A stretch of DNA of 20,475 bases from a virus: the IMG/VR virus record IMGVR_UViG_3300047668_000262, positions 1 through 20,475 of that record, one strand, 5' to 3'. The translations under genes were made by a program, and so were the position numbers. Under the pieces are notes generated by a model that was not told the DNA's origin, did not search any database, and saw only the letters and a program-made list of their open reading frames with translations. Within the stretch, counting starts at the first letter, position 1. Every line of letters begins with the position of its first letter. This document shows, in pieces, positions 1,293-4,249 of this stretch.

Positions 1293-1368
1293 GCCCTTTT
1301 AGCTCAGCTGGTAGAGCAACTGATTTGTAATCAGTAGGTCATCTGTTCGACTCGGATAAAGGGCACCA
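1293..1368 (+). tRNA. tRNA-Thr (anticodon UGU), CCA encoded
   Basis: A full cloverleaf can be folded by hand. The acceptor stem is GCCCTTT (1293-1299) with AAAGGGC (1358-1364). The D arm carries AGCTCAGCTGGTAGAGC. The anticodon stem ACTGA/TCAGT (1319-1323, 1331-1335) closes loop TTTGTAA with anticodon TGT at 1326-1328. The T stem ATCTG/CGGAT closes loop TTCGACT. The discriminator is A1365 and CCA is encoded at 1366-1368. It reads ACA, a codon used very often by the genes around it, so it probably supplements host tRNA during infection. It sits between the two clamp-loader genes. Confidence 0.95.
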
Positions 1369-1771: not shown

Positions 1772-2214
1772 ATGAAGAAGTAACTTGGACACAAGAGAGT
1801 ATGTTAGAGGTCACCTTGACCCAACCAGACGATTTCCTAAAAGTAAGAGAAACATTAACACGAATTGGTGTCGCAAGTAGAAAAGATAAAACTCTTTTCC
1901 AATCATGTCATATTTTACATAAGCAAGGTAAGTATTACATAGTACATTTTAAAGAGTTGTTTGCCCTAGATGGTAAAAAAGCAACCTTAATAAACAATGA
2001 TATTCAACGTAGAAATACAATAGCCGTTCTATTACAGGACTGGAATTTAATTGATATTGTTCTAAAAGAGACAGCAGTATCTAACAAAGCACCATTATCA
2101 CAAATAAAAGTTTTACCGTTTAAAGAGAAAAAAGAGTGGATATTATCTGCTAAATATAACATAGGTAAAAAAATTGTTAAGGAAAATGGTCAAGATGAAA
2201 ATACCAAAGTTTAG
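1768..2214 (+). CDS. regA: RegA translational repressor
   Basis: From residue 12 the product follows T4 RegA closely: MLEVTLTQPDDFLKVRETL, then KDKTLFQSCHIL, then YYIVHFKEL, and near the end KYNIGK. RegA binds initiation regions of early phage mRNAs, including clamp-loader and its own messages, and blocks ribosome loading. Here it is 148 residues against about 122 in T4. The ATG at 1768 gives an 11-residue N-terminal extension and has GGGAG just upstream, while an internal ATG at 1801 would start at the T4-like position. The C-terminus is also longer and overlaps the next gene by 20 bases. Confidence 0.95.
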   Translation: MNEEVTWTQESMLEVTLTQPDDFLKVRETLTRIGVASRKDKTLFQSCHILHKQGKYYIVHFKELFALDGKKATLINNDIQRRNTIAVLLQDWNLIDIVLKETAVSNKAPLSQIKVLPFKEKKEWILSAKYNIGKKIVKENGQDENTKV

Positions 2215-3664
2215 AGACTACATAACAGAGCAAGATAATAGTCGTGATGAAGACAATATCACGGTTGCTATTCTTACTATAAACGATTCAGATAAACCTA
2301 ATAAGGATTCAACTGTTGAACTTATAGAAAAAGCATGTAAAAAGAAGAAGATAGAATGTATTATTGTAAATACTAAATCAGCAATTATCACAGACAAAGA
2401 CGAAGAAAAGAATACCCTTACAGTTTATAATTACGATGGTAAAGATGGCGAATACACCTTTACAGGTAGAGATACACTTTGTATAACAAGAGCAGGTGCA
2501 GTAGAAGACGAAGCTGGTCTTTCTTTAATATCTGCCTTTCAAAACTCATCAGCATTTATGGCTAACACAAGAGCAGCGATGTTAACTTGTGATAACAAAC
2601 TTACGTCTGCTTTACTATTTGAAAAATTTGGTATACCTACACCTACAACATCTTTTATATCTAACGAAAAGAATATAAAAGCAGGACTAGATAAGGTTGG
2701 TGGTAAATTTCCTATAATCTTAAAGACATTAACTGGTACACAAGGTATCGGTGTAATTAAAATAGAAAGTTATGAGGGCCTAGTTGCAACAGCACAAGCA
2801 ATGTGGAAACTAGAGTCTGAACTTTTAATACAAGAATTTATGCCTACGAAGTTTGACGTTAGAACTTTCGTAGTAGATAACAAAGTTATTGCATGTACAA
2901 AAAGAGTACATAGTAGTTATGACTTTAGATCAAATACACACAGAGGTGCTGAAGCAGAACCTTACATATTAAGTGAAGAAGAATATGAATTGGTTTTAAA
3001 AACTGCTAGAGTTTCAAAAGCATATATGGTTGGAGTTGATCACATAGTATTTAATAATAAACCATACATTTTAGAAATCAATGGTAGTCCAGGATCAGGT
3101 GCTGATTACGAGGGTTACCAATATAAAGATTACTATTCAGTAGGCGAACCATCTGGAAGAATAGATGGTGAAAAAATGATGGAGTTTTTAGTTGATTATA
3201 TTTCACAAAGAAAACATTGGGATAGACAAGCACTTTTAGAATGTGGTTGGCTTGAGACAGTTGAAATAGATGGCGTTGGTAAAGTTAGAGCTAAACTTGA
3301 TAGTGGTAACGGATCAAAAGCATGTGCTTTACATGCCGATAAAATTTTAGAAAAAGATGGTAAAATTATAAAATGGAAATATGACGGTAAGATTTTTAGT
3401 AAACCTAAACATGGTGTAAGTAAAATCTTTAGAGCAAATGCTGAGGGTGAAGAACCATCTGAAATTAGACCTACAGTATTATTAGATATTACATTTAATG
3501 GTTTCACATATAAAGATATAGAAGTTGGATTAGATAGTAGACCTAGAGCTGCTTCAGACTTACTAGTCAATAGAGATTTAATGCGATTGATGAATGTCAG
3601 TATAAACCCTAATAGAACATTCGCCTTGAGCAAACGGTTAAAACCGATAAACAAAAAAGATTAG
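2195..3664 (+). CDS. RimK-like ATP-grasp ligase fused to RimK-associated aspartic-protease-like domain
   Basis: The chosen start at 2195 has AAGGAA upstream and gives 489 residues; an earlier in-frame ATG at 2174 lies inside regA. Residues 1-12 (MKIPKFRDYITE) resemble the T4 capsid-targeting peptide. Residues about 20-340 form an ATP-grasp ligase of the RimK type: pre-ATP-grasp segment, ILKTLTGTQGIGV (176-187), DVRTFVV (221-227), and the metal-binding EINGSPG (294-300). RimK enzymes add glutamate to a protein C-terminus, in E. coli to ribosomal protein S6. Residues about 349-480 match the RimK-linked retropepsin-like domain, often called a putative ATP-dependent zinc protease, with AKLDSG (366-371) and Asp369 as the likely catalytic residue. 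A ligase and a peptidase on one chain suggest a reversible protein modification. The target is unknown; S6 is only an inference. Confidence 0.85.
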   Translation: MKIPKFRDYITEQDNSRDEDNITVAILTINDSDKPNKDSTVELIEKACKKKKIECIIVNTKSAIITDKDEEKNTLTVYNYDGKDGEYTFTGRDTLCITRAGAVEDEAGLSLISAFQNSSAFMANTRAAMLTCDNKLTSALLFEKFGIPTPTTSFISNEKNIKAGLDKVGGKFPIILKTLTGTQGIGVIKIESYEGLVATAQAMWKLESELLIQEFMPTKFDVRTFVVDNKVIACTKRVHSSYDFRSNTHRGAEAEPYILSEEEYELVLKTARVSKAYMVGVDHIVFNNKPYILEINGSPGSGADYEGYQYKDYYSVGEPSGRIDGEKMMEFLVDYISQRKHWDRQALLECGWLETVEIDGVGKVRAKLDSGNGSKACALHADKILEKDGKIIKWKYDGKIFSKPKHGVSKIFRANAEGEEPSEIRPTVLLDITFNGFTYKDIEVGLDSRPRAASDLLVNRDLMRLMNVSINPNRTFALSKRLKPINKKD

Positions 3665-3671
3665 TCGTTGA

Positions 3672-3899
3672 TAAGAAGACAATAACTATGCAGGACCTCG
3701 GTGCAATACCGAGCAACTCCACCATTAAACCAAAATTTATGGGGTTGAAATAGGATCGACTCGTAGGTAAAACTTCTAGGAGATTAATCGCTAACATCGT
3801 ACTGTTAATTAAATGCTAACTCACAAGGTTTCGCATTAGCAGCTTAGTCTGCTAGGGGTTTGCCTGTACCTCGCAACAGAAACAGGCGCTTGACAAACC
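3672..3899 (+). ncRNA. ssrA: Two-piece, circularly permuted tmRNA (tag ANSQGFALAA)
   Basis: The acceptor piece comes first. Its T stem CTCGG/CCGAG (3697-3701, 3709-3713) closes a 7-base loop. It is followed by CAACTCC (3714-3720), discriminator A and CCA at 3722-3724. After a 16-base spacer the coding piece starts with GGGGTTG (3741-3747), which pairs with CAACTCC with one G-U. The tmRNA-like GGATCGAC follows (3753-3760). A P2-like helix joins the pieces: 3762-3766 with 3686-3690 and 3773-3777 with 3674-3678. The tag frame 3815-3847 is GCT AAC TCA CAA GGT TTC GCA TTA GCA GCT TAG, encoding ANSQGFALAA with the classic ALAA degron end. A nested hairpin follows (GGTTTG 3857-3862 with 3894-3899; CCTGT 3863-3867 with 3882-3886). 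tmRNA frees stalled ribosomes. Outer ends are approximate. Confidence 0.9.
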
Positions 3900-3918
3900 G
3901 CTAAATATATGATATATT
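3890..3918 (+). promoter_or_regulatory. Sigma70-type promoter with extended -10
   Basis: TTGACA (3890-3895), a 17-base spacer, TGA, then TATATT (3913-3918). This predicts a start near 3925 and a leader of about 20 bases before the ATG at 3944, with AAAGGAAA as ribosome-binding site. The -35 box overlaps the 3' end of the tmRNA coding piece. It would serve 3944, the ferredoxin and gp43. Confidence 0.75.
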
Positions 3919-3943: not shown

Positions 3944-4249
3944 ATGCAAGAAGTGAAAATATTAAGACTATCTACAGGCGAAGATGTAATTGCTAAGGTA
4001 GGAGAAAACGACCAAGGGGTAAGTTTAAAGAACCCATTTGTAATCATACCACAACAAAAAGCACCAGGACAACCAATACAATTAATGATGTCTTTGTACA
4101 ATGCGTTTGGTAAAAGCAATACTATTACAGTAGCTAAAGATAAAATAGTCTTTATAACAGACCCTAAAGACGAAATCTTAAAATCATACGAGAATAACAC
4201 AAGCACTATCATTGCACCAAAGCCAGGACTAATCACAGAAAATAAGTGA
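3944..4249 (+). CDS. Small conserved-type phage protein, possible Sm-like fold
   Basis: This 101-residue protein starts EVKILRLSTGEDVIAKVGE and continues with a predicted beta-rich pattern (VSLKNPFVIIP, NTITVAKDKIVFITDP). It ends in a polar tail. The 'L.TGE.VIA.V ... L.NPF.I' pattern is the one I associate with small T4-like marine phage proteins of Sm/Hfq-like fold, but this is recall without an alignment. No catalytic motif is visible. It is the first gene after a strong promoter and its stop overlaps the GTG start of the ferredoxin, so the two are translationally coupled. RNA binding would fit an Sm-like fold but is not shown. Confidence 0.75.
   Translation: MQEVKILRLSTGEDVIAKVGENDQGVSLKNPFVIIPQQKAPGQPIQLMMSLYNAFGKSNTITVAKDKIVFITDPKDEILKSYENNTSTIIAPKPGLITENK

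Follow-up and report, generated by a model that had tools for sequence, protein, structure and literature searches.

A circularly permuted two-piece tmRNA gene in a likely pelagimyophage-like T4-type phage, maintained by compensatory changes and located at a different genomic site

In trans-translation, a tmRNA alanylated through its G3-U70 pair is delivered by EF-Tu and SmpB, translation resumes on its tag, release follows and the tagged product is proteolysed. A family of phage tmRNAs is widespread in marine viromes, and the reason why lytic phages should have their own ribosome-rescue RNA is unsettled. Here we ask whether such an RNA is encoded in a 20,475-base virus record, a genome fragment analysed over its whole length and hereafter called the window, and what it would do for the phage. 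An earlier note, made from the sequence alone, had read positions 3672-3899 as a phage-encoded, permuted two-piece tmRNA with the tag ANSQGFALAA. This interpretation was supported by the analyses below, which confirmed that window positions 3663-3890 encode a circularly permuted two-piece tmRNA.

ARAGORN, an independent program, called a permuted two-piece tmRNA in the window with the same tag ANSQGFALAA, and gave a single tmRNA call among 300 dinucleotide-preserving shuffles of the window. A match to permuted tmRNA models, named beforehand in the earlier note as a test of its reading, was obtained well above threshold with both the general permuted-tmRNA model RF04321 (89.1 bits, threshold 47, E=2.8e-16) and the alphaproteobacterial model RF01849 (83.5 bits, threshold 50, E=1.3e-21) of Rfam, with part of the RF01849 3′ region missing from the window RNA. 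Minimum free energy folding was mildly better than that of shuffled sequences (z=-2.34), and the fold, drawn by a program that cannot represent pseudoknots, was partly different. The parts of the gene and its flanks are as follows.

2174..3664, + strand: RimK-like ATP-grasp protein, upstream flank (Pfam PF08443, E=5.7e-37)
3663..3890, + strand: permuted two-piece tmRNA gene ssrA, approximate precursor extent (ARAGORN, Rfam RF04321 and RF01849, pair conservation)
3663..3724, + strand: acceptor piece, 5′ end approximate (sequence, pair counts)
3663-3666, 3674-3678 and 3686-3693, + strand: 5′ strands of the P2 helices, within the acceptor piece (pair counts)
3697..3713, + strand: T arm with loop UGCAAUA (sequence, pair counts)
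3714..3720, + strand: 3′ strand of the acceptor stem, CAACUCC, forming 7/7 pairs with 3741-3747, including G3-U70
3721, + strand: A73
3722-3724, + strand: CCA
3725..3740, + strand: 16-nt spacer, presumably removed by processing (sequence)
3741..3890, + strand: coding piece, 3′ end approximate, comprising the acceptor 5′ strand, P2 3′ strands, pseudoknot 1, tag, stop-codon hairpin and last pseudoknot (pair counts)
3741-3747, + strand: 5′ strand of the acceptor stem, GGGGTTG
3753-3760, + strand: GGATCGAC (sequence; alphaproteobacterial consensus)
3789..3806, + strand: pseudoknot 1, with pairs 3789-3792/3796-3799 and 3793-3795/3804-3806
3815-3844, + strand: tag frame ANSQGFALAA with resume codon GCU, followed by stop TAG at 3845-3847 (ARAGORN, sequence)
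3837..3854, + strand: hairpin over the tag end (pair counts)
3855..3887, + strand: last pseudoknot, GGGGU/ACCUC and GCCUGU/ACAGGC (pair counts)
3890..3918, + strand: sigma-70-like promoter for downstream genes, TTGACA-17-TATATT with TG before the second hexamer (sequence)
3944..4249, + strand: DUF6561 protein of 101 aa, downstream flank (Pfam PF20198)

The permuted order is evident from these positions: the acceptor part (3714-3724) is followed by the spacer (3725-3740) and then by the coding part from 3741, and both the order and the parts of the two halves agree with what the earlier note had described. Its limits were less exact, since pairing on the P2 side begins at about 3663 and the last pseudoknot ends at 3887. 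Two features that had been regarded as departures from consensus proved to be ordinary: GGATCGAC equals the alphaproteobacterial consensus in Rfam, and TGCAATA is the commonest T loop in the family, occurring in 15 of 46 distinct relatives. Pseudoknot 1 of the window contains one mismatch (3791/3797).

A BLASTN search of the tmRNA against phage records matched HTVC008M alone, over 58 bases, so covariance models and sequence patterns were needed to find relatives; no match was obtained when the tmRNA DNA was searched against plasmids. Pattern scans of IMG/VR combined with synteny yielded 104 phage tmRNAs, 86 of them distinct, and pairs were counted in an alignment of 46 distinct sequences using a 52-pair structure written from the window. 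Standard pairs filled 91.0% of the cells, compared with 38–50% when the 3′ partners were slid by 1–3 columns, and changes on both sides were found in 32 of the 52 pairs, amounting to 365 such cells versus 30–78 in the slid alignments; the window-derived structure is favoured in this control, although the compensatory counts do not depend solely on this advantage. Among the relatives, seven versions of the acceptor stem were found, each with 7/7 pairs, so that the acceptor pairing, whose loss in related phages would have told against the earlier reading, is kept in 46 of 46 with compensatory changes; the P2 pairing, of which the same had been said, is kept in most. G3-U70 (the alanine identity element), A73 and the CC are invariant in the 46 relatives, and the 54-58 contact of the T loop covaries, being T-A in 36/46, G-G in 10/46 and no other combination. 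Overall, the T arm was paired in 100% and the P2 helices in 88–100% of cells in the 46-sequence alignment.

Support is unevenly distributed in the closer group of the window (17 sequences), where pseudoknot 1 and both distal P2 helices are maintained, and the P2 helix adjoining the tRNA domain (3686-3693) is paired in only 56% of cells. Pseudoknot 1 covaries within this group and the last pseudoknot across the wider set, and several subclades (L458, L434, L414 and relatives) have a simple hairpin, for example AGUC-GAAA-GACU, in place of pseudoknot 1. Even in the window's own clade, the stop-codon hairpin shows a compensatory change from GCAGC/TCTGC to GCGGC/TCCGC. Spacer length ranges from 0 to 121 nt in the relatives. 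Spacers of 47–121 nt were seen in L409, L416, L400, L423 and others, and inverted repeats in some of them would lengthen the acceptor stem of the precursor. At the other extreme, L440 (IMGVR_UViG_3300035183_000669, tag ANDAVYELAA) is a spacer-free permuted tmRNA with GGGG directly after CCA, and therefore one cut would yield both pieces.

The best match to the family B DNA polymerase of the window is in Pelagibacter phage Mosig (72.4% identity), followed at about 50% by the next best, and the window is therefore likely a fragment of a pelagimyophage-like T4-type phage. The T4-like replication cluster in which the earlier note had placed the tmRNA is borne out by the neighbouring genes, namely clamp loader, RegA-type translational regulator, RimK-like ATP-grasp, DUF6561, 2Fe-2S ferredoxin, family B DNA polymerase, MT-A70 methylase and RecA. 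A tRNA-Thr (TGT) gene lies at window positions 1293-1368 between the clamp-loader genes. By analogy with related isolates, the host would be of the SAR11 type, a group among the commonest ocean bacteria; Melnitz, a relative, infects OM43 and not SAR11 (PMC9004378).

Phage-borne two-piece tmRNAs are already known from this very group of phages: one was reported in 2022 in Methylophilales phage Melnitz (PMC9004378) and the ssrA of Mosig EXVC030M is annotated in GenBank. Permuted tmRNAs were found in 17/47 related contigs, and two-piece forms in 53/133 unique phage tmRNAs (PMC9004378), and the tmRNA database of 2025 holds 79 bacteriophage sequences (PMC11915505). We located a further permuted tmRNA, unannotated in the GenBank record, in HTVC008M (NC_020484.1, 145103-145414). 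The ssrA genes of Melnitz, Mosig and HTVC008M resemble that of the window in being permuted, two-piece and borne by T4-like marine myophages, but they lie near the gene of the late-transcription coactivator gp33, whereas the window gene lies between RimK-like and DUF6561 genes, and their tags (ANDNYVPVDYALAA, GEDNFALAA and ANFNEYALAA, respectively) differ from ANSQGFALAA. A glutamine riboswitch has been reported with ssrA in Melnitz (PMC9004378), whereas none scored above the Rfam threshold in the window. Mycobacteriophage Bxz1 and Bacillus phage G are likewise tailed phages with ssrA (PMC4131195), but they are distant, and their ssrA is not described as permuted in that source. What is new here is the different site of the tmRNA in the window's clade, the apparently modular tag and the deep phage clade separate from SAR11 tmRNAs; the broad covariation is a further point of note.

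Regarding the site, the same gene of about 120 aa and unknown function (F7) lies just upstream in 44 of 55 representative phage tmRNAs, with a PD-(D/E)XK nuclease gene nearly always before F7 and gp33 slightly further downstream; the tmRNAs lacking F7, besides that of the window, are on shortened contigs, in clearly different phages, or in L114, which keeps the nuclease and gp33. This site near gp33 is common to the tmRNAs of Mosig, Melnitz and HTVC008M. In the window's clade (the window, L005-L009 and L027), the tmRNA instead occupies a 282-bp interval between the RimK-like and DUF6561 genes, and in 69 syntenic relatives the same interval measures 55–115 bp and contains no tmRNA; in Mosig and Melnitz the tmRNA lies at the gp33 site, and the RimK site is without one. 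The nearest tmRNA outside the clade, in L422, has the same tag, is identical over 87.8% of the backbone and is located at the gp33 site. The simplest reading is that the gene was moved or copied from the gp33 site into the RimK-DUF6561 interval, which probably occurred in the window's clade, where the available contigs of 32 kb and 29 kb end short of the gp33 site. No paper on tmRNA relocation in phages was found among the open-access papers searched. Across the 282-bp interval a single base separates the window from L027, and two 200-bp blocks spanning it are 98% identical, compared with about 86% for the genomes; this near-identity may reflect strong constraint or a recent segment exchange. 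By eye, the end of the RimK gene possibly resembles the 5′ edge of the tmRNA, as a recombination footprint might.

The tag frame is conserved. Among 101 phage calls with tags of at most 10 residues, 91 end in ALAA and 7 in RMAA or AMAA, so the conservation of the ALAA frame that the earlier note had made a test of its reading was found; tags of the family include ANFNEYALAA, ANSQGFALAA, ANESYALAA, ANDNNFALAA, ANYNNFALAA and ADSQGFALAA. Different tags were found on some tmRNAs that are 97–99% identical elsewhere. Fisher tests on four pairs, which had been selected once the data were inspected and in which a 3-base gap counted as three positions, gave p=1.6e-6 for L157 vs L092 (2 backbone differences, 6/15 tag positions), 1.6e-8 for L423 vs L407 (3 in the backbone, 8 in the tag, L407 having ANESYALAA) and 3.2e-7 for L406 vs L465 (6 and 8); because of this choice of pairs, the values serve as illustration and not as proof. 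Conversely, identical tags, often with the same central codons, were found on backbones that are 56–75% identical. ANESYALAA, present on an HTVC008M-type backbone in the phage contigs L407 and L493, which come from separate data sets, is also the tag in 12 of 20 SAR11-like genomes read, which were assigned indirectly via the SAM-V riboswitch and relatedness, and ANDELALAA led among the higher-scoring SAR11-like tmRNAs. A separate set, L406, L400, L465, L494 and L505, carries DNHIDYRMAA or DNESYRMAA tags, which start with GAC (Asp) and not with an alanine codon and have the RMAA end.

Short-tract recombination between phages or with the host would explain this pattern, strong selection on the tag could account for part of it, and assembly chimeras are possible, but less likely for the ANESYALAA form that was found twice. 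We propose, tentatively and at slightly under even odds, that the tag centre in marine myophage tmRNAs is an exchangeable module, which would pass between backbones by short-tract recombination and sometimes become identical to a host tag, with no change to the ALAA end; tags would then be selected for the host adaptor or protease that reads them, and the whole gene may be movable as well, as in the window's clade. A search of open-access papers, which was not aimed at tag exchange itself, found none on such exchange in phages, and papers searched for SAR11 tags yielded nothing. These phages provide a comparison set, consisting of tmRNAs that are identical apart from the tag, identical tags on differing backbones, and phages that have or lack the gene at a given site, which would allow the roles of ribosome release and protein tagging to be separated experimentally.

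SmpB (PF01668) was sought in the complete HTVC008M and Mosig genomes and in the window-clade contigs, including the window fragment, with no match, so a trans-translation system that the phage encodes by itself is not supported. SmpB is present in 6/6 SAR11-like genomes, and host SmpB is therefore the most likely partner of the phage tmRNA in trans-translation. The tmRNA gene begins where the RimK-like gene ends, at its stop codon; no clear dedicated promoter was found directly upstream of it, and the next gene's promoter begins at 3890, at the tmRNA end, with similar promoter-like sites also seen in relatives lacking the tmRNA; we therefore infer that the RNA is transcribed from upstream and excised. 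In the proposed course of events, the tmRNA would probably be co-transcribed with the RimK-like gene. Removal of the 16-nt spacer by host nucleases would leave two RNAs joined via the acceptor and P2 helices. Charging by host alanyl-tRNA synthetase would occur via G3-U70 and A73, and host SmpB and EF-Tu would deliver the RNA to ribosomes stalled on broken messages. There the ribosome would continue on the tag as far as UAG, and the product, marked by its ANSQGFALAA tail, would be directed to ClpXP-type proteases. Ribosomes would thereby be kept cycling and amino acids recycled during the destruction of host messages. What the analyses show is the RNA structure and its conservation, the tag frame, and that SmpB is missing from complete relatives but encoded by likely hosts; expression, processing, charging, use in infection and benefit are inferred. 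Weighing against this account are the RF01849 score, far below that of host tmRNAs, the missing part of that model's 3′ region and the lack of a dedicated promoter. Taken together, we assign a probability of about 0.9 to the reading that this is the permuted ssrA of a pelagimyophage-like T4-type phage, working with host factors, normally kept near gp33 in the family and probably moved or copied to its present site here.

Three other readings were weighed against this one. That the gene is a decaying host-derived ssrA remnant, carried by chance and functionless for the phage, would fit its RF01849 score, which is below those of host genes (83.5 vs 189–244 bits), and the absence of a copy at the window site in 69 syntenic relatives, but compensatory changes throughout, invariant charging determinants and a tag frame conserved over a deep phage clade, together with the compensatory change in the stop-codon hairpin inside the window's own clade, leave it strongly disfavoured and highly improbable. 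The RNA might instead be a decoy, binding SmpB or competing with the tmRNA of the host and thus blocking host rescue in infection. The complete relatives without their own SmpB would suit such a role, and the tag-less tmRNA-like RNA of phage DS6A is similar to one that has been shown to be a strong tmRNA inhibitor (PMC4131195); yet the DS6A RNA has no tag part, unlike the phage tmRNA here, and a decoy would have no need for a conserved ALAA tag frame or a stop-codon hairpin, so we give this reading only a small chance.

The same RNA mechanism as in the preferred reading, with a different purpose, is implied if tagging is aimed at the host, the phage's own tag serving mainly to degrade host products and recycle amino acids or to divert tagging from host adaptors. 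This purpose was proposed for Melnitz (PMC9004378), and it would agree with tag centres that differ more than the rest of the RNA between some close relatives while the ALAA end is constant. However, there is no known means for a tmRNA to choose host over phage ribosomes, and some phage tags equal a SAR11-like host tag; we consider it unlikely.

As to where the phage gene came from, a tree of the backbone without the tag placed 54 phage tmRNAs in one clade (support 1.0) on a long branch, apart from 26 SAR11-like tmRNAs, in a short alignment of 174 columns with alphaproteobacteria as the only bacteria included. On acquisition from the host lineage, which the earlier note had offered as an alternative, the evidence is limited: the separate, long-branched clade makes recent capture from the present host unlikely, and an older alphaproteobacterial source would fit the Rfam match. 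Compared with the window RNA, SAR11-type tmRNAs share the permuted order, the acceptor and T-arm design, GGATCGAC and a short ALAA-ending tag (ANESYALAA, ANNKFALAA or ANDELALAA), but the phage form is shorter, scores lower against RF01849 and occupies a separate branch. More than 20 SAR11-like genomes also contain extra short tmRNA fragments (about 70–230 nt, 19–35 bits), often within a few kb of the full gene, such as those at 278284 and 280157 beside 281553 in G483:C1 and at 18627-21317 beside 18031 in G513:C7, which look like remnants of mobile elements that integrated into ssrA.
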